Assembly (NCBI GenBank): GCA_001874335.1
Contig: MPDE01000002.1
Coordinates: 186,001-250,000, forward strand
DNA: 64,000 nucleotides
Direction of reading: 5' to 3'
From: Bacteroidetes bacterium MedPE-SWsnd-G2
GTDB lineage: Bacteria > Bacteroidota > Bacteroidia > Flavobacteriales > Flavobacteriaceae
Part shown: piece by piece, positions 35,450-46,646 of the stretch
How the letters are laid out: every line of letters begins with the position of its first letter
Position numbering within the stretch: the first letter of the stretch is position 1
The notes under the pieces: model-generated
Told to the model about the DNA's origin: nothing
The model's input: only the letters and a program-made list of their open reading frames with translations
The model's database searches: none
Made by a program: the position numbers and the translations under genes

Positions 35450-37687
35450 ATGAAATCGTCTTTAAAATATATTATTTCAACCGTAGTTTGTGCACTTTTT
35501 ATAGTATTGCTCGCTGTGCGATGCAAAGACAATGAAAATGCTAAATACATTGATTACACAACGACTAATAAAGATTTAAAATTCTCAGATTCAGATTTTG
35601 TAGGTACAGAAACCTGTATTGCGTGCCATAGTGAGGAATACAACCAATGGAAAGGTTCTCATCACGATGATGCTATGAAAATTGCGGATTCTACTTCGGT
35701 TTTAGCCGATTTCAACAATACCACGTTTACCAATCAGAATGTAAAAAGCACATTTTTCAAAAAAGATGGCGACTATTATGTAAACCTCGAAAATCCTGAA
35801 GGTGAATTTCAAGATTATAAAATCGTTTACACCTTTGGTGTGACTCCATTGCAACAATACATCGTTGAGTTTCCAAATGGTGCGTTCCAATGCTTACAAA
35901 CCGCTTGGGATTCTGAAAAGGGTGCATGGTATGACCTTCAACCAAATTATACCCTTAGAAGTGATGAGTGGATTCACTGGAGTAGCGGTGGAATGCGTTG
36001 GAATTCGGCTTGTGCAGATTGCCATTCAACTAATCTTAAGAAAAACTATAACAACGAAACCAGTACGTTCAATACAACCTTTGATATTATAAATGTGAGT
36101 TGTGAAGCCTGTCATGGTCCATCAAGTAAACACGTCGACTTTTATAATCAAGATCTTTTAGAAGGCCTAACGCCACCTAAAATGTATATGCCTACAGGTA
36201 TGGAATCTCAAGAAGTGGTAGATAAATGTGCAAGATGTCATTCAAGACGATCTCAATTAACCGATTATTTTGATTACAATGGTAAATTTGAAGATCATTA
36301 TTTACCTGAAGCCTTATCGCACCCGAGATATGAAAGAGATGGTCAAATTTTAGATGAAGACTATGTTTATGGTTCTTTTATTCAAAGTAAAATGTACCAT
36401 ACCAATGTATCCTGCCGAGATTGTCATAATATGCATTCCTTAAAACTTAAAGAAACAGGTAATGCGCTATGTATTAACTGCCACCTTCCAGAAATTTACG
36501 ATGCGCCAGAGCACTACTTTCATGAAGTTGATAGCGAAGGTTCCCAATGTATAAATTGTCATATGACAGGCCGTACCTATATGGGCAACGACTTTAGACG
36601 AGATCATAGTTTTAGAGTTCCCAGACCTGATCAATCTTTAGCCTACGGTACCCCAAATGCCTGTAATGGCTGTCATACAGACAAGGATGCAAAATGGGCA
36701 AGTGATGTAATAATTGATAAATTTGGTCCAGATAGACCTGACCATTATTCCAATCATCTCACAAAAGCGACTTTAGGCGATATGATCGCTCAAAAAACAC
36801 TTTTAATGAATGAGTCTTATCCTGCATTAACAAGGGCTTCAGCCTTAGACATGTATAGTAGAAATAGGCTAAATGATGATATGCTTAGAGAATTACTTCC
36901 GCTACTACAAGACGAAGCTCCAATGGTAAGATTTCATACAATTTCTGCGTTTGAACGCGCGGAAAGCACCAACTTTACAAATCAGATTTATCCCTTTTTA
37001 GATGATCCTATAAGAATGGTAAGAATCGCTGCTTCGAGATATTATCACTACAAAAACATTGAACTTTTTGAAGATGAAACTTACAACAAGGCGCATAAAG
37101 AATTGCAAAACTACTTGGCTGTAAATGCCGATTTCCCTGGCGGACAAGTTCAATTAGCACTGTATCATCAAGCTAAGAATGAAATGGATTTAGCTATAAA
37201 AGCTTACCAAAAATCAATTTCGTATGATGTTTTTTTCAACCAGGCTAAAATGAATTTGGCCCTTTTGCACTACCAAGAGGGCGATTTAGATGCTGCAGAA
37301 AAATTATATATTCAAGTCACCGAATTGGAACCTAATTATGGATATTCTTATTATATGTTAGGATTGTTGTACAATGAAAAAGGAGATGCACCAAATGCGA
37401 AGAAATATCTCAAGTTAGCAAGTGAACGCGAGCCTCACATACCAAATACCTTTTATAATTATAGTTTAATACTTCAAGGTGAAAAGCAATTTATGGAATC
37501 TATTAAGGTCATTGATAACGGTCTTGCACTATTTCCAAATAACGAACGCTTACTTTATATTAAAGTGTTAGCCTTAATTAACACAAACAACCGACCCGCT
37601 GCGATGCAGGTTTGTCAACAACTAATACAAGTTGCACCTAACAATCAAAATTACATGCAACTCTACCAATCCTTAATGCAACAATAA
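35450..37687 (+). CDS. Octaheme c-type cytochrome with HEAT-like and TPR repeats
   Basis: 745 aa. An N-terminal hydrophobic segment (about 7-24) ending at Cys25 may be an anchor or an atypical lipoprotein signal. Residues about 56-410 carry eight CxxCH heme-binding motifs (CIACH, CADCH, CEACH, CARCH, CRDCH, CINCH twice, CNGCH), so eight covalent hemes are expected in the periplasm. Residues about 440-535 look like HEAT-type helical repeats, and about 545-745 are TPR repeats (for example MNLALLHYQEGDLDAAEKLY, YYMLGLLYNEKGDAPNAKKY). The heme part resembles multiheme cytochromes of electron-transfer chains; the repeats suggest protein binding. Its redox partner is not in the window. Confidence 0.85.
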   Translation: MKSSLKYIISTVVCALFIVLLAVRCKDNENAKYIDYTTTNKDLKFSDSDFVGTETCIACHSEEYNQWKGSHHDDAMKIADSTSVLADFNNTTFTNQNVKSTFFKKDGDYYVNLENPEGEFQDYKIVYTFGVTPLQQYIVEFPNGAFQCLQTAWDSEKGAWYDLQPNYTLRSDEWIHWSSGGMRWNSACADCHSTNLKKNYNNETSTFNTTFDIINVSCEACHGPSSKHVDFYNQDLLEGLTPPKMYMPTGMESQEVVDKCARCHSRRSQLTDYFDYNGKFEDHYLPEALSHPRYERDGQILDEDYVYGSFIQSKMYHTNVSCRDCHNMHSLKLKETGNALCINCHLPEIYDAPEHYFHEVDSEGSQCINCHMTGRTYMGNDFRRDHSFRVPRPDQSLAYGTPNACNGCHTDKDAKWASDVIIDKFGPDRPDHYSNHLTKATLGDMIAQKTLLMNESYPALTRASALDMYSRNRLNDDMLRELLPLLQDEAPMVRFHTISAFERAESTNFTNQIYPFLDDPIRMVRIAASRYYHYKNIELFEDETYNKAHKELQNYLAVNADFPGGQVQLALYHQAKNEMDLAIKAYQKSISYDVFFNQAKMNLALLHYQEGDLDAAEKLYIQVTELEPNYGYSYYMLGLLYNEKGDAPNAKKYLKLASEREPHIPNTFYNYSLILQGEKQFMESIKVIDNGLALFPNNERLLYIKVLALINTNNRPAAMQVCQQLIQVAPNNQNYMQLYQSLMQQ

Positions 37688-37690
37688 ACA

Positions 37691-37722
37691 AAAACCTCGG
37701 ATTAAACCTCCGAGGTTTTTTT
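37691..37722 (+). terminator. Terminator after the cytochrome gene
   Basis: A 10-bp stem (37691-37700 with 37710-37719), a 9-base loop and a T-run follow the cytochrome stop codon. Confidence 0.9.
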
Positions 37723-37844: not shown

Positions 37845-37856
37845 TGACTTAAGTCA
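37845..37856. promoter_or_regulatory. TGAC-N4-GTCA palindrome upstream of fhs
   Basis: TGACTTAAGTCA is a perfect 12-bp palindrome whose centre lies 29.5 bases before a TATCTTTA -7-like box (37880-37887), 64 bases upstream of the fhs ATG. The form suits a dimeric Crp/Fnr-family site; the same TGAC-N4-GTCA is found before nadA at almost the same distance from its -7 box. Confidence 0.5.
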
Positions 37857-37919
37857 TATTCTAACATTTTAGAATCGAATATCTTTATTCAGATACTCAA
37901 CACAAAAAATGTTCACATT

Positions 37920-39587
37920 ATGACGGATTTACAAATTGCTAAAAAGATAAAACTCGAACACATTTCTAAAATTGCCGAAAAATTTGGTTTGGATGAAGAG
38001 CAAATCGAAATGTACGGTAAATACAAAGCAAAAATTCCGTTAGATGCCATAGATAAAACCAAGGCTAAAAAAAGCAATTTGATTTTAGTATCTGCCATCT
38101 CTCCAACTCCTGCAGGAGAAGGAAAAACAACAATGTCCATCGGTCTATCTGAAGGCTTAAATAGATTGCAAAAAAAGACCACCGTAGTTTTAAGAGAACC
38201 ATCATTAGGTCCAGTATTTGGGATTAAAGGTGGAGCTACAGGAGGTGGTTACTCTCAGGTGCTACCTATGGAAGATATTAACCTCCACTTTACAGGTGAT
38301 TTTTCGGCCATTGAAAAAGCACACAATCTGCTTTCAGCCATTATTGACAATAATATTCAAAGTAAAACAAACTCTTTAAGATTAGATCCCAGAACCATCA
38401 CATGGAAACGTGTTTTAGATGTAAATGATAGAGCATTGCGCCGTATAATTGTGGGATTAGGAGGAACAACTTCTGGTGTGCCACGTGAGACCGGCTTTGA
38501 TATTACGGCAGCCTCGGAGATCATGGCCATACTATGTCTTTCGGAAAGTCTTTTAGATCTGAAAAAACGTTTAGGAAATATTTTTATTGGTTATACCTAC
38601 GACAAATCCCCTATTTATGCAAAAGATTTAAAGGCTGAAGGAGCAATGACCGTCTTACTAAAGGATGCCATAAAACCTAATTTGGTTCAAACTATCGAAG
38701 GTAATCCTGCCATTATTCATGGCGGACCATTTGCCAATATTGCTCAAGGGACCAACACTACATTGGCAACATTGTTAGGGATGACACACTCAGAATATAC
38801 GGTGACGGAAGCAGGTTTCGGATTTGATTTGGGTGCAGAGAAGTTTTTTGATATCAAATGCCAAAGTGCAGGATTAGCTCCTAAAGCTGTTGTGTTAACA
38901 ACCACTATTAGAGCTTTAAAATATCATGGTGGAGCCGATTTAAAATCGCTGACTACACCTGATATAGACGCCTTAAGAAATGGTCTTCCAAACTTAGAAA
39001 AACATTTAGAAAACATTGCTAAGTTTAAGGTAACACCGGTAATAGCAATCAATAAATTTACTACCGATTCACCTGAAGAAATTCAATTAATTTTAGATTA
39101 TGCCCAATCTTTAAACGTAAAAATTGCACTTGCCGATGTTTGGGGTAAAGGTGGTGAAGGTGCTTTAGAGTTAGCCCAATGCATTGTTGATATTATCGAA
39201 GAAGACACGTCTAATTTCACGCCTCTATATAACTGGTCATCGCCCGTTAAGGATAAAATTGAAACCATCGCAAAAGAAATTTATGGTGCTGAGCATGTCG
39301 ATTTTACTGCTAAAGCCAAAACCCATTTAAAAACTATTGCCCATTTAGGGTTGGAGCATTTACCGGTTTGTATTGCAAAAACTCAAAAGTCGCTTTCAGA
39401 TAACCCAAAATTATTAGGTAGACCAAAAGATTTTATAATTACAGTGAGAGCTATTGAAATTGCATCTGGAGCAGGTTTCCTTATTCCAATTACTGGCAGT
39501 ATTATGCGCATGCCAGGTTTACCAGCACATCCAGCATCTGAAGGTATTGATATCGATGAGAACAATGAAATTGTAGGATTGTTTTAA
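37920..39587 (+). CDS. fhs: Formate--tetrahydrofolate ligase
   Basis: A 555-aa enzyme that makes 10-formyl-THF from formate, THF and ATP. The P-loop segment is SPTPAGEGKTTMSIGLSEGL around residue 61, followed by VLREPSLGPVFGIKGGATGGG, both diagnostic of the family. The C-terminal ITGSIMRMPGLPAHPASEGID is also characteristic. The length is normal. It feeds one-carbon units to purine and serine/glycine metabolism. An upstream TGAC-N4-GTCA palindrome suggests regulation. Confidence 0.95.
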   Translation: MTDLQIAKKIKLEHISKIAEKFGLDEEQIEMYGKYKAKIPLDAIDKTKAKKSNLILVSAISPTPAGEGKTTMSIGLSEGLNRLQKKTTVVLREPSLGPVFGIKGGATGGGYSQVLPMEDINLHFTGDFSAIEKAHNLLSAIIDNNIQSKTNSLRLDPRTITWKRVLDVNDRALRRIIVGLGGTTSGVPRETGFDITAASEIMAILCLSESLLDLKKRLGNIFIGYTYDKSPIYAKDLKAEGAMTVLLKDAIKPNLVQTIEGNPAIIHGGPFANIAQGTNTTLATLLGMTHSEYTVTEAGFGFDLGAEKFFDIKCQSAGLAPKAVVLTTTIRALKYHGGADLKSLTTPDIDALRNGLPNLEKHLENIAKFKVTPVIAINKFTTDSPEEIQLILDYAQSLNVKIALADVWGKGGEGALELAQCIVDIIEEDTSNFTPLYNWSSPVKDKIETIAKEIYGAEHVDFTAKAKTHLKTIAHLGLEHLPVCIAKTQKSLSDNPKLLGRPKDFIITVRAIEIASGAGFLIPITGSIMRMPGLPAHPASEGIDIDENNEIVGLF

Positions 39588-39658
39588 AAGCATTGATTTT
39601 AACCGCAATTCTTTTTAACTTCTAATCCTTTATAATCAATCACCTTAACAACCTTATA

Positions 39659-40036
39659 ATGAGTTTAGAAAACCAAAAGAATAACGCCATTGCATTTTAT
39701 AAAATGGCCTATTTGGGGAATCCCAGAGAAGCTGTAAACTTATATGTAGGCGATGAATACATTCAACACAATCCTGATGTTGCAGACGGCTTAGATGGAT
39801 TCATCGCTTATTTTGAACGCATGCAAAAAGAATACCCCAACAAATCTATTGAATTTGTGAGATGTATATCTGAAGGCAATTTGGTAGCACTACATACGCA
39901 TCAAACCTGGCCAGAAGAGGATCAATATGTCACAATGGATTTCTTTAGATTTGATGAAAATGGAAAAATATGTGAGCATTGGGACAGCATTCAGCAAATT
40001 CCAAAATCTTCAGCAAACCCAAATTCCATGTATTAA
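39659..40036 (+). CDS. SnoaL/NTF2-like protein
   Basis: A 125-aa cone-shaped alpha+beta domain of the NTF2/SnoaL superfamily. It starts with helices (NAIAFYKMAYLG), then NLYVGDEYIQHNPDVADGLDGF and HTHQTWPEEDQYVTMDFFRFDENGKICEHWD, the usual pattern. Such proteins act as cyclases, isomerases or binding domains. No signal peptide. It is followed by the acetyltransferase gene after 9 bases, likely one transcript. The substrate is unknown. Confidence 0.8.
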   Translation: MSLENQKNNAIAFYKMAYLGNPREAVNLYVGDEYIQHNPDVADGLDGFIAYFERMQKEYPNKSIEFVRCISEGNLVALHTHQTWPEEDQYVTMDFFRFDENGKICEHWDSIQQIPKSSANPNSMY

Positions 40037-40045
40037 TACAATACT

Positions 40046-40621
40046 ATGACAGAACGAGAAAAGATGCTTTCTGGGGCACACTATAAATCAAGAGACCCCG
40101 AATTAATTGCAATGTATCACAATGCAAGAGCGCTTTTACAACGCTTTAATTCTGCAAACAGTAAAGAAATTGAGGAAAAACATAACATCCTCACTCAATT
40201 ATTGCATAACTGTGAAGATGGTGTATGGATAGAGGCGCCTTTTTTCTGTGACTACGGTAGTCATTTATCAATTGGACAAAACACCTTTATTAATACTAAT
40301 TGCGTGTTTTTAGATTGTAATTTCATTAGCATTGGATCTAATTGCCTAATTGCGCCAAATGTTCAAATTTATACGGCTTCACATCCTATAAAAGCTTCAG
40401 AACGATTGGTAACAAAAAATAATGAAACCTCATATCTCACTTCCTGCAAGCCCGTAAGCATAGGAGATAACGTTTGGATTGGTGGCAATACAGTAATCTG
40501 CCCTGGCGTTTCAATCGGGAATAATGTAACCATTGGAGCGGGAAGCGTGGTTACTAAATCCATTCCAAATGATGTACTTGCCTTTGGAAGCCCATGTAAA
40601 GTGATTAAATCTTTAGAATAA
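40046..40621 (+). CDS. Sugar O-acetyltransferase (Maa/LacA/NodL type)
   Basis: A 191-aa left-handed beta-helix acetyltransferase that uses acetyl-CoA on a sugar hydroxyl. The N-terminal MTEREKMLSGAHYKSRDPEL is the Maa-type cap. The hexapeptide-repeat coil includes the catalytic His in ASHP (residues around 112-115) and the ending VSIGDNVWIGGNTVICPGVSIG. The length fits maltose/galactoside acetyltransferases. Acceptor sugar not identifiable. Confidence 0.9.
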   Translation: MTEREKMLSGAHYKSRDPELIAMYHNARALLQRFNSANSKEIEEKHNILTQLLHNCEDGVWIEAPFFCDYGSHLSIGQNTFINTNCVFLDCNFISIGSNCLIAPNVQIYTASHPIKASERLVTKNNETSYLTSCKPVSIGDNVWIGGNTVICPGVSIGNNVTIGAGSVVTKSIPNDVLAFGSPCKVIKSLE

Positions 40622-40714
40622 TAATATTCATGGTACTGCTTCAGTTAAAATTGAATGATCGTCTTGTTTCTAATCAATTTTGTAATTAGTAATTTTGAAT
40701 TTTAAATAGAAATT

Positions 40715-41182
40715 ATGAGTAACAATTCACCTTATAGCTTTGATTATTTTATTAAAACCTTAAAAATTATGCACCTACTATTTGTGCTCTTTTTATCGTG
40801 TTTTTTAGGATACATCTATTTTTCCAATGATGTCTGGGCCGTTTCTTTTGAAAATTCTATGACTGTAGTTGGAGTTACTGCAATTGTGTTCTTGGCTGTT
40901 GTTGTTAGCAATTACATTCAGAAACATAAACTCAAAGCGTCTAAAGATTTTAAATCTATAAAAGATGTATTTGAAAATTATCAAAAAGCATTTATTATAA
41001 AACTGGCCATACTTGAGGCTACAACCTTGCTATGTTGCGTTGTTGGGAAAACGACTGACAACTTATATTTTGTATTATTAGCATTGGGGTTAGTTATTTA
41101 TTTCATCAGTCTTAGACCCTCTAAAAAAGGTGTTAGAGCTGAGCTTTCCTTAAATTCTGAAACCGAAAATCAACTCTCATAA
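40715..41182 (+). CDS. Unknown four-helix membrane protein (copy A of a pair)
   Basis: 155 aa with four hydrophobic segments (about 16-36, 46-66, 90-108, 115-133). It has the motif ENYQKAFIIKLAILEA before helix 3 and LRPSKKGVRAEL after helix 4. The protein at 53699 has the same layout, with YQEASIIRWALIEG and LYPSDSRIHRAL, so the two are divergent paralogues of one uncharacterised Bacteroidota family. No catalytic residues are evident. Confidence 0.75.
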   Translation: MSNNSPYSFDYFIKTLKIMHLLFVLFLSCFLGYIYFSNDVWAVSFENSMTVVGVTAIVFLAVVVSNYIQKHKLKASKDFKSIKDVFENYQKAFIIKLAILEATTLLCCVVGKTTDNLYFVLLALGLVIYFISLRPSKKGVRAELSLNSETENQLS

Positions 41183-41339
41183 AATTTAATTTTGATTTTT
41201 TTATTCGCTTTTGAAAGGTTGATAAAAATAGCCGACTGAAGGCTTATAAAATTAATATAGATCAATAATCAAGTTGGTCTATTTTTTAAAATTTAAACTA
41301 AGCACCTGCTTAGTATTACAACTCAAATACACGTATTTT

Positions 41340-41891
41340 ATGAAATCATTTACCATTCACAATTCCGACTCGGCTCCACAAGACAGCAAACCATTACTAG
41401 AAAATTCAATCAAAGCATTTGGTATGATACCCAATTTACACGGGGTACTGGCAGAATCTCCAGGATTATTAGAAGCTTACCAAATGTTACACAATTTATT
41501 TTCTAACTCCTCTTTCAATGCCGAAGAATTAACGGTTGTGTGGCAAACTATAAATGTAGAACACGCTTGCCATTACTGTGTACCGGCACATACAGCAATT
41601 GCCCACATGATGAAAGTTGATCCAGAAATTACGGAAGCGCTTAGAAATAAAGGCAATATGCCAACCGAAAAACTACAGGTGTTACACGATACAACATTAA
41701 TATTAGTAAGAGAACGAGGTCACATCTCTGAATCTGATTTAAATCGTTTTTACAATGAAGGATACACACAAAGAAACTTACTAGACATTGTTTTAGGTAT
41801 ATCACAGAAAGTGATTAGTAATTACACCAATCACTTAGCAACCACTCCTGTTGATGCACCATTTCAAAAATTTGCTTGGGAGAAAAAATAG
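41340..41891 (+). CDS. Carboxymuconolactone decarboxylase/AhpD-like protein
   Basis: 183 aa from the ATG at 41340; an in-frame TTG 22 codons upstream (41274) is rejected because that stretch reads like leader DNA. The AhpD-type active site is visible as ExxCxxCxxxH: Glu74, Cys77, Cys80 and His84 (HACHYCVPAH). Members act as alkylhydroperoxidase partners or as decarboxylases; with the CxxC and His a peroxidase or disulfide-reductase function is more likely. It is monocistronic, followed by two hairpins. Confidence 0.85.
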   Translation: MKSFTIHNSDSAPQDSKPLLENSIKAFGMIPNLHGVLAESPGLLEAYQMLHNLFSNSSFNAEELTVVWQTINVEHACHYCVPAHTAIAHMMKVDPEITEALRNKGNMPTEKLQVLHDTTLILVRERGHISESDLNRFYNEGYTQRNLLDIVLGISQKVISNYTNHLATTPVDAPFQKFAWEKK

Positions 41892-41907
41892 AATTCGAAA
41901 TTCTATT
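41887..41907 (+). terminator. Hairpin at the stop codon of the AhpD-like gene
   Basis: 9-bp arms (41887-41895 with 41899-41907) with a CGA loop enclose the TAG stop codon. It is followed by TATTT rather than a long T-run and precedes a second, stronger hairpin. Confidence 0.5.
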
Positions 41908-41914
41908 TATTTAG

Positions 41915-41946
41915 AAAAGCTAACATGAGAATGTTAGCTTTTTTTT
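41915..41946 (+). terminator. Terminator after the AhpD-like gene
   Basis: A 12-bp stem (41915-41926 with 41931-41942), a GAGA tetraloop and an eight-base T-run form a textbook intrinsic terminator. Confidence 0.92.
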
Positions 41947-42080
41947 GGGTTTATAACCTGCGTTTTTATTTTCTCTAACAATTTAGAAACATTATCCCAA
42001 TTAAATTAATAATCAAAACATAGTGTTGTAACATCTTAGTAATAGTTGCTTGTTAGATTTATCCCAAACCTGCAATAGTT

Positions 42081-42572
42081 ATGAAAGCTTTTAAACTACC
42101 TCTTGTTTTACTACTTATAGTACTTCAACTTAGTTTGATCAAACACAAACTACATTTTAAAGCCATCAAGCCAGGACATTTCACTTTTGTTACAATGCAA
42201 TCTAATAGTTTTCAGATAAAAATTAAGGATACCATTCCGCCACATGCAAACATCTATTTTACCAACTCTAAATGGAATGGTAACCACTTTAATATTAATG
42301 GGTCTCATCTTACTTGGAATACGGGTACAGAATCTATATTGCCCGGTAGTAAAATATCATTTAGCCAGATAGAAAAACAGCCAACAGCTTCTAAAGGCAG
42401 TCTAGAAGGCCAAATGAAACTAACTTCTCAAGACCCCATATTTGCATACTTAGGGCATAACAAAATGCCAACACTTTTCTTGGCTGCTGTTGGTACAAAC
42501 AATAAGGCATTTGGCACACTCACAAACACGCAACTTACATTAGATAAAACAGTTACCATACAAATGCCATAA
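42081..42572 (+). CDS. Small secreted single-domain protein (FTNSKWNG-type)
   Basis: 163 aa. An N-terminal hydrophobic segment (about 5-21) serves as signal or anchor. The remainder (about 50-163) matches a domain I recognise from large secreted Bacteroidota and cyanobacterial proteins: ANIYFTNSKWNGNHF, an ITW-like LTWNTGTE, a GSKISF strand, and FAYLGHNKMPTLFLAAVG. Those proteins usually carry it beside other surface modules; here it stands alone. Function unknown. It heads a run of small exported proteins. Confidence 0.7.
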   Translation: MKAFKLPLVLLLIVLQLSLIKHKLHFKAIKPGHFTFVTMQSNSFQIKIKDTIPPHANIYFTNSKWNGNHFNINGSHLTWNTGTESILPGSKISFSQIEKQPTASKGSLEGQMKLTSQDPIFAYLGHNKMPTLFLAAVGTNNKAFGTLTNTQLTLDKTVTIQMP

Positions 42573-42607
42573 AAAAAGTATATTTAGCTATCAAATTATA
42601 CAACGGC

Positions 42608-43039
42608 ATGGGTAAAAAAACAATCTTCTCTGTTGCACTATTCCTTTTCACCTTAGGATGTTTATCACAAACAGAACTGGTGGTTGGTACCTATTTTAAA
42701 AAAATGGGTAATGAAAAGCACAACATAGAATACACCTTAAAACTAAATAGCGATCAAACTTTTAGTTTCCACTCCTACTCCAACAATGTTTCGGGCTTAC
42801 CCCAAATTGTAAATAAATATGGAAAGGGCACTTGGACAATTAAAGACAAAATCATCACTTTAAGCACGGATCAAATGGATGATTATGATGATAAAAACAC
42901 TTTAGATTTTACAAATTCTAAGGCACGCTTTATAAGCAAATCACCTCGAGACAAATCCGATAGAGAAATTCCAAACAGTTTACAATTTTATGAATCTGAT
43001 ATATTTTGGATTAAAAGCTTACAAATTACCAAGAAATAA
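42608..43039 (+). CDS. Unknown secreted protein
   Basis: 143 aa with a signal peptide (KTIFSVALFLFTLGCLSQ). The mature part is a small beta-rich domain (GTYFKK..., YTLKLNSDQTFSFHSYS, GKGTWTIKDKIITLST), resembling lipocalin-like or META-like folds that test a growth or fitness trait, but no exact family is evident. It lies 35 bases after the previous small exported protein and 38 bases before the DUF6624 lipoprotein, in the same direction. Confidence 0.65.
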   Translation: MGKKTIFSVALFLFTLGCLSQTELVVGTYFKKMGNEKHNIEYTLKLNSDQTFSFHSYSNNVSGLPQIVNKYGKGTWTIKDKIITLSTDQMDDYDDKNTLDFTNSKARFISKSPRDKSDREIPNSLQFYESDIFWIKSLQITKK

Positions 43040-43077
43040 AAGTCTTCAGCTGTTGCTGAAATAACACATCAATCCTT

Positions 43078-43770
43078 ATGCGAATCATTTTACTACTTGC
43101 TGTCCTTTTAAGTGTTTCTTGTTCTGATAAAAAAGCAAACAACACCCTTCAAAACACAGCTCCAGATGCCAAAACCTTAACTGCAATGTTAGATACTATT
43201 TGGGACACAGAACAAACACCTATTACAAAACGGGATTCGCTAATGCGCATTTATGGGGATGAATCTGAGCTATACCAGGAGCAACAAAATTTAGTAAAAG
43301 CTAACCATATCATCAATGAAAAAAAGGTCACTCAGTATTTAGACACCTACGGCTGGCCTGAGCCTGAGCGTTCTGGGGAAAGAGGTAATTGGACCATTTG
43401 CAACGTTATTCAACATTCTGATAATGCTGTACGCATTAAATACCTACCAATGATGCGGGAAGCCGTAAAGGCTAACAAACTGGAGCCACGATTTTTGGTT
43501 AGGGCTGAAGATCGCATAGCTACCGAGCGAGGTGATTTACAGATTTACGGCGGGCAAATGAAATACTACCCTGAAACCAAATCCTTTAACCTTTGGCCAG
43601 TTTATGACCCTGAAAACATAGATAAACGAAGGGCAGAAATAGGTTTGGGCCCAATAGATGAATTTCTTAAACTCCGGTTTGATTTTGAATGGAACTTGGA
43701 AGAGCAAATAGAACGTTCAAAAGCATTTGAAGCGGCCAAACTTAAACAAAACAGGGCGAAAAAGAAGTAA
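43078..43770 (+). CDS. DUF6624-type lipoprotein
   Basis: 230 aa with a short signal ending in the lipobox LSVSC (Cys15). The body matches the DUF6624 layout as I remember it: TYGWPEPERSG, CNVIQHSDN, YLPMMREAVKAN, RAEDRIATERGDLQIYGGQ, and the RRAEIGLGPIDEFL ending. The family has no known activity. The C-terminal 30 residues are Lys/Glu-rich. It ends the run of three small exported proteins and is followed by a 287-base gap. Confidence 0.75.
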   Translation: MRIILLLAVLLSVSCSDKKANNTLQNTAPDAKTLTAMLDTIWDTEQTPITKRDSLMRIYGDESELYQEQQNLVKANHIINEKKVTQYLDTYGWPEPERSGERGNWTICNVIQHSDNAVRIKYLPMMREAVKANKLEPRFLVRAEDRIATERGDLQIYGGQMKYYPETKSFNLWPVYDPENIDKRRAEIGLGPIDEFLKLRFDFEWNLEEQIERSKAFEAAKLKQNRAKKK

Positions 43771-43983
43771 ATGCATTAAACATACATCATTCCAACCTAG
43801 ATTATCTTAAAACAATAGAAATCATTTAAAGTAAGGTATTTGGGCTAAAAATCTAAGATAACTAAAAGCCAATATATCCTTCTCATTGCATGGGGTTTAC
43901 CTCAAAATCTTAAAGCAACCCACTAGACAACTGCTTTAAATTAAGCCCTACCCTATTATCATAATCAATAATGTCCAAGCACA

Positions 43984-43999
43984 AATGACATATGTCATT
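43984..43999. promoter_or_regulatory. 16-bp perfect palindrome upstream of nadA
   Basis: AATGACATATGTCATT is a perfect palindrome containing TGAC-N4-GTCA. Its centre is 28.5 bases upstream of the nadA -7 box at 44020-44027, which is the position of class II activator sites. It may bind a Crp/Fnr-type regulator shared with fhs. Confidence 0.55.
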
Positions 44000-44019
44000 A
44001 GCGTTCGTTTATTATCTAT

Positions 44020-44027
44020 TAATTTTG
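44020..44027 (+). promoter_or_regulatory. -7 box of the nadAB operon
   Basis: TAATTTTG fits TAnnTTTG exactly and lies 30 bases before the nadA ATG. The normal TTG box is missing; the palindrome at 43984-43999 occupies that region instead. Confidence 0.55.
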
Positions 44028-44057: not shown

Positions 44058-45053
44058 ATGAGTGATTTAGAACAAGCGAAATTAACATTAGAAGAAAAGG
44101 GATTTTTAGATATAGAAACGCCTAACATTAACTATGTTGAAGAAATTCTAAGATTAAAAAAGGAAAAAAATGCGGTTTTATTGGCCCATTATTATCAAAT
44201 AGATGAGATTCAAGAAATTGCCGATTTTGTTGGTGATAGTTTGGCTTTAGCCCAACAGGCCGCCAAGACTGATGCCGATATGATTATTTTTGCAGGAGTT
44301 CATTTTATGGCTGAAACGGCAAAAATTTTAAACCCCACTAAAAAAGTAATCCTCCCCGATTTAAAAGCGGGTTGTTCACTGGCGGATTCTTGTCCGCCTG
44401 ATGCTTTTTCTGAATTTAAAAAGCAACATCCAGATCATAAAGTAGTGACTTACATTAACTGCTCTGCAGATATTAAAGCGCTTAGTGATATTGTATGCAC
44501 CTCATCTAATGCCAGAAAAATTATTGATTCCTTCCCCGAAGATCAACCTTTAATTTTTGCTCCTGATCGAAATTTAGGCGCTTACCTCAACAAAGAAACT
44601 GGAAGAGATATGCTGCTTTGGGATGGTGCTTGTATTGTGCATGAGGCCTTTTCTATGGAGAAACTTATTGAAGTGGTGAAAGAACATCCCGATGCCGAGT
44701 TAATCGCCCACCCAGAATCTGAAGCACATATGCTTAAAGTTGCAAAATACATAGGCTCTACTTCAGGACTATTAAACCATGTGAGACAAAGTGAAAAGAA
44801 AAAATTTATAGTGGCCACAGAGGCCGGAATTCTTTTTCAGATGCTTCAGGAAAATCCAGATAAGGAAATCATTCCGGCGCCCGCTAAAGAAGATAATACC
44901 TGTGCTTGCAGTGAATGTGCGTTTATGAAAATGAACACCTTAAAAAAGCTGTATTTATGTTTAAAGTATGAATTGCCTCAAATAGAAGTTGACGATGCCT
45001 TAAGCGCCGAAGCTATCAAACCCATTGAGCGCATGCTTGAGCTTTCTAAATAA
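44058..45053 (+). CDS. nadA: Quinolinate synthase
   Basis: 331-aa [4Fe-4S] enzyme that condenses iminoaspartate with dihydroxyacetone phosphate to quinolinate in NAD biosynthesis. The three triose-phosphate/iron-site cysteine regions are present: [14 protein letters not shown] (Cys106), GACIVHE, and the C-terminal CACSEC segment. The early [19 protein letters not shown] is typical of NadA. nadB follows after nine bases, so the two NAD genes are one operon with a palindrome-containing promoter. Confidence 0.95.
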
Positions 45054-45062
45054 AATAGAAGT

Positions 45063-46646
45063 ATGACCAACGATAAAAACTGTATTCAATCAGATTTCTT
45101 AGTTATAGGATCTGGAGTTTCGGGATTAACCTTTGCTTTAAAAGCGGCTTTAAAATTTAAAGACGCTAAGGTTATTATCGTTACCAAAGACGAGCAACAC
45201 GAATCTAATACCCAATACGCTCAAGGCGGAATTGCTACAGTATTCAATAAAACGGTTGATAGTTTTGAACAACATGTACAAGATACCCTTGTGGCTGGTG
45301 ATGGTCTTTGTGATGAAGCTGTAGTACGTATGGTGGTTGAAAATGCGCCCGACCGATTGCAAGAACTCATTAATTGGGGCACCAAATTTGACAAAACAGA
45401 AAGTGGTGATTACGATTTAGGTCGTGAGGGTGGTCATTCTCAACATCGTATTTTGCATCATACCGATGTTACTGGGGCAGAGATTGAACGTGCACTTTTA
45501 GCGCAAGTAAATGCCCAACCCAACATTCAGTTTTTGTCTTATCATTACGCTATAGATTTAATCACAGAACATCAGGTTAAAAAAACAGCAACCAAACGAC
45601 ATTCAAACATACAGTGTTATGGTGCTTATGTGTTAGATATAAAGTCTAATACTGTAAAAACCTTTGCTAGCAAATACACCTTATTGGCTGCTGGTGGAAA
45701 TGGTCAAGTGTATGAAACCACAACCAACCCAACCGTTGCCACAGGTGACGGCATAGGGATTGCCTACCGCGCCAAAGCCGAAATTGCAGATATGGAGTTT
45801 ATTCAATTTCATCCTACGGCACTTTATAATCCTGGTGAATATCCAGCATTTCTAATCTCTGAAGCCGTGCGTGGTTTTGGAGCTAAACTTAGAGATTTTG
45901 AGGGGCGTAAATTCATGCAGCATTATGACCCAAGAGAAGAATTAGCTTCCCGTGATATTGTTGCCCGCGCTATCGATAAGGAACTTAAAAAAAGTGGAGC
46001 TCCTCATGTGTACTTGGATTGCACACATTTAGACATGGAAAAATTTATTGCTCATTTTCCCAATATCACAGAGAAATGTGCAAGTTTGGGTATTGATATT
46101 GCCAAAGATTATATTCCGGTGGTTCCTGCATCACATTACATTTGTGGCGGCGTAAGCGTAAATAAAAATGCTGAAACTTCAATAAAACAGTTATACGCCT
46201 GTGGGGAAGTTACCAGAACTGGTTTACATGGCGGCAATCGCTTGGCTTCAAATTCTCTTTTAGAAGGTTTGGTCTATGCGCATCAAGCCTATACCCATAT
46301 TTCTGAACGTTTTGACAACACAGCATTCCCTAAGCATGTTCCCGTTTGGAACGATAGCGGTATGATTAAAAACATGGAGAACATTTTAATTACTCATGAC
46401 CGCAATGAAGTAAAAACAATCATGACTAATTATGTTGGAATCGTAAGATCTAACGAGCGCTTATTAAGAGCAGAAAAGCGTTTACATGTCCTTTATGAAG
46501 ACAATAAACGCTTATATGATCATTCTGTTTTATCTGTGGAATTATGTGAGCTTCGAAATCTAATAACCACAGCTTATTTAATTACGCAATTTTCAAAACA
46601 ACGTACCGAAAACCGAGGTGGTTTTTACAATCTTGATTGCGACTAA
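45063..46646 (+). CDS. nadB: L-aspartate oxidase
   Basis: A 527-aa FAD flavoprotein that oxidises L-aspartate to iminoaspartate, the substrate of NadA. The N-terminal dinucleotide fold has VIGSGVSGLTFALKAA, and the family's SQHRILHHTDVTG and YICGGVSVNKNAET follow. RTGLHGGNRLASNSLLEG is the characteristic active-site strand. It ends exactly one base before the stop of the convergent TolC gene, so there is no terminator between them. Confidence 0.95.
   Translation: MTNDKNCIQSDFLVIGSGVSGLTFALKAALKFKDAKVIIVTKDEQHESNTQYAQGGIATVFNKTVDSFEQHVQDTLVAGDGLCDEAVVRMVVENAPDRLQELINWGTKFDKTESGDYDLGREGGHSQHRILHHTDVTGAEIERALLAQVNAQPNIQFLSYHYAIDLITEHQVKKTATKRHSNIQCYGAYVLDIKSNTVKTFASKYTLLAAGGNGQVYETTTNPTVATGDGIGIAYRAKAEIADMEFIQFHPTALYNPGEYPAFLISEAVRGFGAKLRDFEGRKFMQHYDPREELASRDIVARAIDKELKKSGAPHVYLDCTHLDMEKFIAHFPNITEKCASLGIDIAKDYIPVVPASHYICGGVSVNKNAETSIKQLYACGEVTRTGLHGGNRLASNSLLEGLVYAHQAYTHISERFDNTAFPKHVPVWNDSGMIKNMENILITHDRNEVKTIMTNYVGIVRSNERLLRAEKRLHVLYEDNKRLYDHSVLSVELCELRNLITTAYLITQFSKQRTENRGGFYNLDCD

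Follow-up and report, generated by a model that had tools for sequence, protein, structure and literature searches.

In E. coli, FNR and CRP are known to act from a class II position centred at -41.5, and FNR carries cluster cysteines at residues 20, 23, 29 and 122 and a recognition helix with E209, S212 and R213. Here we analyse two palindromes with a TGACN4GTCA core that precede fhs and nadA in 64,000 nucleotides of Bacteroidetes bacterium MedPE-SWsnd-G2, a member of the Flavobacteriaceae (contig MPDE01000002.1, positions 186,001 to 250,000); this whole stretch is called the window below. The FNR box is given as TTGATN4ATCAA in the accessible part of PMC1274295, which also describes TTGACnnnnGTCAA as the motif of HcpR1 in deltaproteobacteria and two cyanobacteria. 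The exact motif string occurs there and, for Pseudomonas, in the accessible part of PMC4974557.

The arrangement studied here resembles that of FNR and ANR in its TGA-N6-TCA palindrome, in the centre at -41.5, in the glutamate and arginine of the recognition helix of the candidate regulator (P0003), and in targets that include hemN, the cbb3 oxidase, pflB and the regulator's own gene, as is generally known of those systems. It differs in that C as well as T is accepted at the inner base, where FNR has T, no outer T is needed and the promoters have a flavobacterial -7 box; in P0003 the third cluster cysteine is replaced, other cysteines are conserved, and the score lies below the Fnr cut-off. 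To our knowledge, fhs and nadAB would be unusual as FNR targets. The core is identical to that of HcpR1, but HcpR acts mainly on hcp and frdX, whereas the targets here are genes of low-oxygen respiration, haem synthesis and fermentation. A two-component input reaching FNR-type boxes is familiar from rhizobial FixLJ-FixK (PMC6710368, in the part available), but here the receiver and the Crp/Fnr DNA-binding parts can be joined in one protein, of which P0005 is the type. In a partial survey of the open-licence literature we found no description of an FNR box, an FNR protein or a low-oxygen regulon for Flavobacteriaceae, and none matching receiver-Crp fusions or nadA or fhs under FNR; the main text of PMC9723704, a large flavobacterial transcriptome study, mentions neither Fnr nor Crp.

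We consider it highly probable that the two palindromes serve as class II sites from which an FNR-like protein of the Crp/Fnr family activates transcription, switching genes on at low oxygen. Computation shows the boxes and how they are spaced, that they recur in other genera, which kinds of gene make up the set, and an association with regulator genes.

Two palindromes at a predicted class II position

The features that define the two loci are as follows.

37845..37856, plus strand: FNR-type box TGACTTAAGTCA, centre 37850.5, 29.5 bases before the fhs -7 box (about -41.5)
37880..37887, plus strand: fhs -7 box TATCTTTA, consensus TAnnTTTG with A as last base
37920..39587, plus strand: fhs, formate--tetrahydrofolate ligase, 555 amino acids (PF01268, E 5.2e-255; NF010030, 850.8 bits, cut-off 652)
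43984..43999, plus strand: FNR-type box AATGACATATGTCATT, core TGACATATGTCA at 43986-43997, centre 43991.5, 28.5 bases before the nadA -7 box
44020..44027, plus strand: nadA -7 box TAATTTTG
44058..45053, plus strand: nadA, quinolinate synthase, 331 amino acids (TIGR00550, 387.7 bits, cut-off 262.9)
45063..46646, plus strand: nadB, L-aspartate oxidase, 527 amino acids (TIGR00551, 535.5 bits, cut-off 452.75)

The sequence-only reading had proposed a palindrome 29.5 or 28.5 bases before each -7 box and no TTG box at that place, and we reproduced both palindromes, both -7 boxes and both distances; the spacers of the fhs and nadA promoters contain no TTG. In a mapped flavobacterial transcriptome TAnnTTTG spans -12 to -5 (PMC9723704, in the part available). 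We place the box centre at -41.5 because it lies 29.5 bases before the first base of the -7 box, at -12; with the -12 place of the box taken from that study, this is the predicted class II position. The lack of a -33 element in the two promoters agrees with a right half-site near the -33 place. Thus the earlier reading of Crp/Fnr-type class II sites fits both promoters in form and in place, and the same spacing is found in orthologues from other genera. The gap between nadA and nadB is 9 bases and, judging by this spacing, both genes are presumably carried on the same transcript.

The arrangement with the -7 box, and not the bare palindrome, exceeds chance

The window holds no further copy of TGACN4GTCA. 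Shuffled windows contained 0.47 copies on average, so the earlier estimate of about one per 64 kb by chance was slightly too high, and the bare count (2 versus 0.47) is not significant because 10 of the 100 shuffles had two or more. The two copies had been called suggestive; what carries the signal is their spacing to the -7 box, their number being within chance.

We searched the whole genome (3.04 Mb, 19 contigs) with the reversed pattern as control. The palindrome alone occurred 26 times against 19 for the control and, like the window count, was rejected as a signal. Gene context, taken from a table of open reading frames (ORFs) of at least 70 amino acids, placed 20 of the 26 copies within ORFs and six upstream of genes, namely those for a CBS protein, fhs, nadA, an NAD(P) reductase, an MBL-rhodanese protein and pflB; the table placed the MBL-rhodanese site 'inside' owing to an alternative TTG start, and this call was overruled. 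All six lie 22-23 bases before TAnnTTT[GA]. The arrangement TGAYN4RTCA-N22-24-TAnnTTTG gave 10 matches against 0 for the reversed pattern, one of them (L110), though an exact match, within an ORF. With the gap fixed at N23 and one mismatch permitted, 26 matches stood against 6; fhs is picked up here owing to the final A of its -7 box. Of the further matches, about ten fall within ORFs (L122, L124, L125 and L128-L134) and were taken as chance, and three others (L121, L123 and L135) are ambiguous.

Across 100 genomes of the family, one per genus and including the window genome, TGACN4GTCA-N22-24-TAnnTTTG has 230 matches and its reversed counterpart 14, found in 75 and 12 genomes, respectively. 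The arrangement with the -7 box alone separates signal from chance, and the boxes do not occur at random positions at the same rate, an outcome that would have spoken against the proposal. We examined 80 of the 230 sites, among the matches listed and in listing order with some skipped: the gap was 23 in 75 of them, 24 in 3 and 22 in 2. At position -1, 59% of 75 sites have A and 7% have T, so that the outer T of TTGACnnnnGTCAA is not conserved although the core matches. Three genomes (G029, G041 and G097) share, among the matches listed, a similar 44-base match with a gap of 24, present in two identical copies in G029; it has the look of a repeat or mobile element more than of a promoter.

The predicted regulon

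The window genome has about 14 candidate promoters, nine with exact boxes outside genes and about five with one mismatch. Exact boxes precede the genes for the CBS-domain protein, nadAB, a thioredoxin-reductase-like enzyme, the MBL-rhodanese protein, phosphoenolpyruvate carboxykinase (PEPCK), the ribosome hibernation factor HPF, pyruvate formate-lyase (PFL) and hemN, and a gene without assigned function (L115), whose divergent neighbour would be served by the weaker site L135. Boxes with one mismatch precede fhs, a YeeE-like gene and, as one shared site, P0003 and a ccoI-like metal ATPase gene, with a near-consensus promoter on each side of this site. YeeE and CcoI were named by eye and neighbourhood, Pfam supporting a metal-binding ATPase for the latter.

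Across the family, the 80 sites precede genes for MBL-rhodanese (7), hemN (7), ccoN (6), universal stress protein (6), HPF (4), thioredoxin-like proteins (4), HYC_CC_PP protein (4), a small membrane protein of unassigned function (4), Pta (3), PFL (3) and nirK (3), followed by pairs or single cases, hemA, moeA and a NorC-looking cytochrome among them. Four sites lie within an ORF on the same strand that has an alternative start, and one site lacks a downstream ORF. The downstream genes form 35 clusters (BLAST), about half of them named by models through one representative and the rest by eye or left unnamed; hemN, HPF, nirK, ccoN and hemA score above NCBIfam cut-offs, and PFL-like proteins and PEPCK were assigned by Pfam. 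The predicted targets thus form a set of anaerobic or microaerobic genes. In a flavobacterium under oxygen limitation, genes for the cbb3 oxidase and haem rise (PMC9723704, in the part available). The earlier suggestion of a small regulon linking one-carbon metabolism to NAD synthesis is not supported by about 14 promoters of mostly low-oxygen type; fhs and nadA probably belong to a larger, largely undescribed low-oxygen FNR-like regulon in many flavobacteria. The redox state of the earlier proposal is better read as low oxygen, judging by the target genes.

The targets also bear on who reads the boxes. We regard as unlikely a reader that senses nitric oxide (NO) instead of oxygen, a Crp/Fnr regulator of the HcpR or DNR kind, even though it would suit the identity with the HcpR1 core, the three nirK sites and the NorC-looking cytochrome c at L254 (1 of 80, by eye, with a NorB-type Pfam match below cut-off). 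The low-oxygen and energy genes hemN, ccoN, pflB, HPF and PEPCK outnumber these. Neither hcp nor frdX was recognised among the annotated targets, for which cluster representatives only were considered, with no model search for hcp, and HcpR2, the branch found in Bacteroides, has another motif, GTAACnnnnGTTAC (PMC1274295, in the part available). A carbon-sensing MalR-like protein is a poorer candidate, with very little probability. The accessible part of PMC8510549 places Crp/Fnr homologues from Flavobacteriales metagenome-assembled genomes near MalR and predicts a carbon signal for them, but the targets recognised here are respiratory, haem and fermentation genes, and it is on the targets that the contrast rests. 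The 35 clusters, about half of them model-named, contain no recognised sugar-utilisation cluster except L304, which by eye resembles deoxyribose-phosphate aldolase.

Recurrence of the box in orthologous promoters

Among the 100 genomes, nadA was found in 39 and fhs in 32; 38 nadA promoters were counted, the window's included, G056 being left out because the start was not covered (L204). A box was scored within 180 bases upstream when TGAYN4RTCA matched at all eight positions and TAnnTTTG at five or more of its six. By this measure 12 of 38 nadA promoters (11 at a gap of exactly 23) and 11 of 32 fhs promoters (all at 23) are boxed; the single exception among these 23 is the window's own nadA, at 22. 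A scan of gaps from 5 to 45 gave a single peak at 23, other gaps having 0 to 2 matches each. Shuffles predict 0.015 genomes per gene, and some 33 kb further upstream gave one match per gene. Spacer sequences vary among the genera. Among named nadA loci, 7 of 78 are boxed, all at gap 23 (L035, L036, L038, L040, L042, L044 and L048), two of the original 80 (L045 and L091) being too short to count; all seven are flavobacterial, as are by our count 20 of the 78 from the families of their genera, and the other 58 have no box. The expectation that the box would be conserved upstream of fhs and nadA orthologues is thus borne out in part: it recurs at the same spacing, including 21 boxed promoters in other genera, and the majority of orthologues are without it.

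The same counts bear on whether the fhs and nadA palindromes are chance matches beside an otherwise real regulon, which is less probable still than a MalR-like reader. The many unboxed orthologues and the one shuffled window in ten with two such palindromes would allow it, but all six copies of TGACN4GTCA in the genome that we read as intergenic are correctly spaced, and the 21 boxed promoters of other genera, every one with gap 23, compare with 0.03 expected in the whole set.

Sixteen genomes have both genes; both are boxed in 2, nadA alone in 4, fhs alone in 4 and neither in 6. With both boxed in only 2 of 16, a private fhs-nadA pair was rejected, and the two genes therefore seem to have been recruited separately. 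Of the 11 genomes with a boxed fhs, 6 have A in place of G as the last base of the -7 box (the window, at 37880-37887, and L167, L169, L172, L205 and L206), which perhaps makes these promoters weak without an activator. Upstream of the fhs promoter the window shows two further features.

35450-37687: multihaem cytochrome with TPR repeats, directly upstream of fhs
37690..37720, listed on the minus strand: terminator-like hairpin between the cytochrome gene and the fhs promoter, 12-pair stem (shuffles mean 0.2)

At six of the 12 boxed nadA loci (L154, L159, L163, L165, L166 and L200) the neighbouring divergent gene is of Rrf2 type and has a cysteine motif, which suggests a second control of NAD synthesis, linked to iron-sulfur (Fe-S) clusters, through an Rrf2-type regulator. 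Such a gene likewise lies beside nadA in L036 (9383-9859, minus strand), L037, L041 and L044. That the nadA box is itself the site of this regulator is as improbable as the chance matches above, since fhs, hemN, ccoN and further genes are preceded by this box at this spacing, an Rrf2 gene is present without a box in L037 and L041, and the other six boxed nadA genes, the window's included, have no Rrf2 homologue within a searched stretch of 1.5 kb (600 bases in L198), on which ground Rrf2 was also rejected as a general reader of the box.

A candidate regulator, P0003

Regulators were sought through PF13545 (HTH_Crp_2), and the genome encodes two such proteins, P0003 and P0004. P0003 (225 amino acids) is encoded outside the window, divergently from the ccoI-like gene, and the intergenic region between the two holds a box. 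Its PF00027 (64.4 bits) and PF13545 (60 bits) domains are both above cut-off, it aligns with solved FNR structures, and its recognition helix, GTATESAIR, has E191 and R195 at the FNR places and Ile194 at that of the serine. E191 and R195 are invariant in the best 30 of the 62 clear homologues (P0003 itself among them), as are C4, C7, C53 and C106 (30 of 30 each), and C29 and C59 are present in 29. The glutamate is missing from the helix of P0004, so that only P0003 of the two has an E..R helix; the likely reader of the boxes is P0003, judging by these residues. A clear orthologue of P0003 is found in 62 of the 100 genomes.

Two observations stand beside these. One homologue with 36% identity (L100) has a C-x2-C-x8-C pattern. 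P0004 (L120:1492-2127, minus strand; also L113) adjoins genes that by eye resemble sulfur transport and the MBL-rhodanese gene, two of them boxed, and may respond to sulfur and recognise a different DNA sequence; the L027 match in the look-up of homologues at named loci is a homologue of P0004, not of P0003.

Several points weigh against the boxes being FNR-type sites read by P0003. Cysteines occupy three of the four FNR cluster positions (C4, C7 and C106), but the third place, C29 of FNR, is N13 in P0003, and the best NCBIfam model, Fnr (NF008365), scores 100.2 bits, short of its cut-off of 228. A rearranged cluster is possible because further cysteines are conserved; P0003 is predicted to work like FNR without being filed as an Fnr equivalog. 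Crp/Fnr proteins beyond PF13545 fall outside the search. The window's nadA box has the minority spacing of 22. Most orthologues have no box (26 of 38 nadA, 21 of 32 fhs), and none precedes nadA in the two Polaribacter, which at 85% identity are the closest relatives among the named loci; frequent gain and loss of the box therefore seems likely. Every one of the 23 boxed nadA and fhs promoters belongs to a genome that encodes P0003 or the second candidate described below, and the genomes with neither (4 with nadA, 2 with fhs) are all without box, but this says little because 34 of 38 nadA and 30 of 32 fhs genomes have such a regulator in any case. Lastly, 23 of the 38 genomes that lack a clear P0003 orthologue still carry at least one box, and a second reader is therefore needed.

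A second candidate reader

L325:1489-2547, minus strand: P0005, receiver-cNMP-Crp fusion

We found a receiver-cNMP-HTH_Crp fusion with the helix ATESLIR or a near variant in 11 of 12 genomes without a clear P0003, the 12 having been picked mostly for having boxes and the fusion domains assigned by Pfam for P0005 alone. The fusions (L318-L327, L329, L330, L332, L333 and L342) are about 350 amino acids long, with a recognition helix nearly as in P0003, and were detected in 52 of the 100 genera at a threshold of E <= 1e-60. In at least five genomes (G043, G058, G078, G089 and G093) the fusion gene ends no more than about 75 bases from a box. Among the 100 genomes, boxes average 3.86 in the 28 that have both regulators, 1.59 in the 34 that have P0003 but no fusion, 2.67 in the 24 with a fusion but no P0003 and 0.29 in the 14 without either, where the control average is 0.14. 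The difference from genomes with neither is supported for either regulator (p 5e-6) and for the fusion only (p 6e-5), values that are indicative because the genomes are related and their sizes uncorrected.

These counts leave us evenly divided on a wider proposal, in which a single low-oxygen box of the Flavobacteriaceae is read by two types of protein, a one-component FNR-like regulator with rearranged cysteines and a receiver-Crp/FNR fusion fed by a histidine kinase, with genera carrying either, both or neither. Direct oxygen sensing and two-component signalling would then have been exchanged or merged on one regulon, into which NAD and one-carbon genes were repeatedly recruited.

Proposed mechanism and meaning

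For the window promoters we infer binding by P0003, activation, and oxygen or an Fe-S cluster as the signal. At low oxygen a P0003 dimer would bind the site TGAC/T-N4-A/GTCA, at about -41.5 before flavobacterial-type promoters, replace the missing -33 contact and recruit RNA polymerase. Expression of fhs and nadAB would rise together with that of hemN, pflB, the ribosome hibernation factor, PEPCK, the thioredoxin-reductase-like enzyme and the sulfur-related genes. Formate made by pyruvate formate-lyase could then be fixed by Fhs, and more NadA and NadB could offset damage to Fe-S clusters, NadA being an Fe-S enzyme, and the loss of oxygen as an acceptor for aspartate oxidase. Formate fixing and NAD support when oxygen is scarce are plausible uses of the two boxes.

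Flavobacteriaceae are abundant in sea and soil, and for them there is now an explicit, testable description of the box and of its spacing, together with two candidate readers and a target list. The placing of NAD synthesis and formate fixation in the low-oxygen regulon of several genera is a specific physiological prediction.

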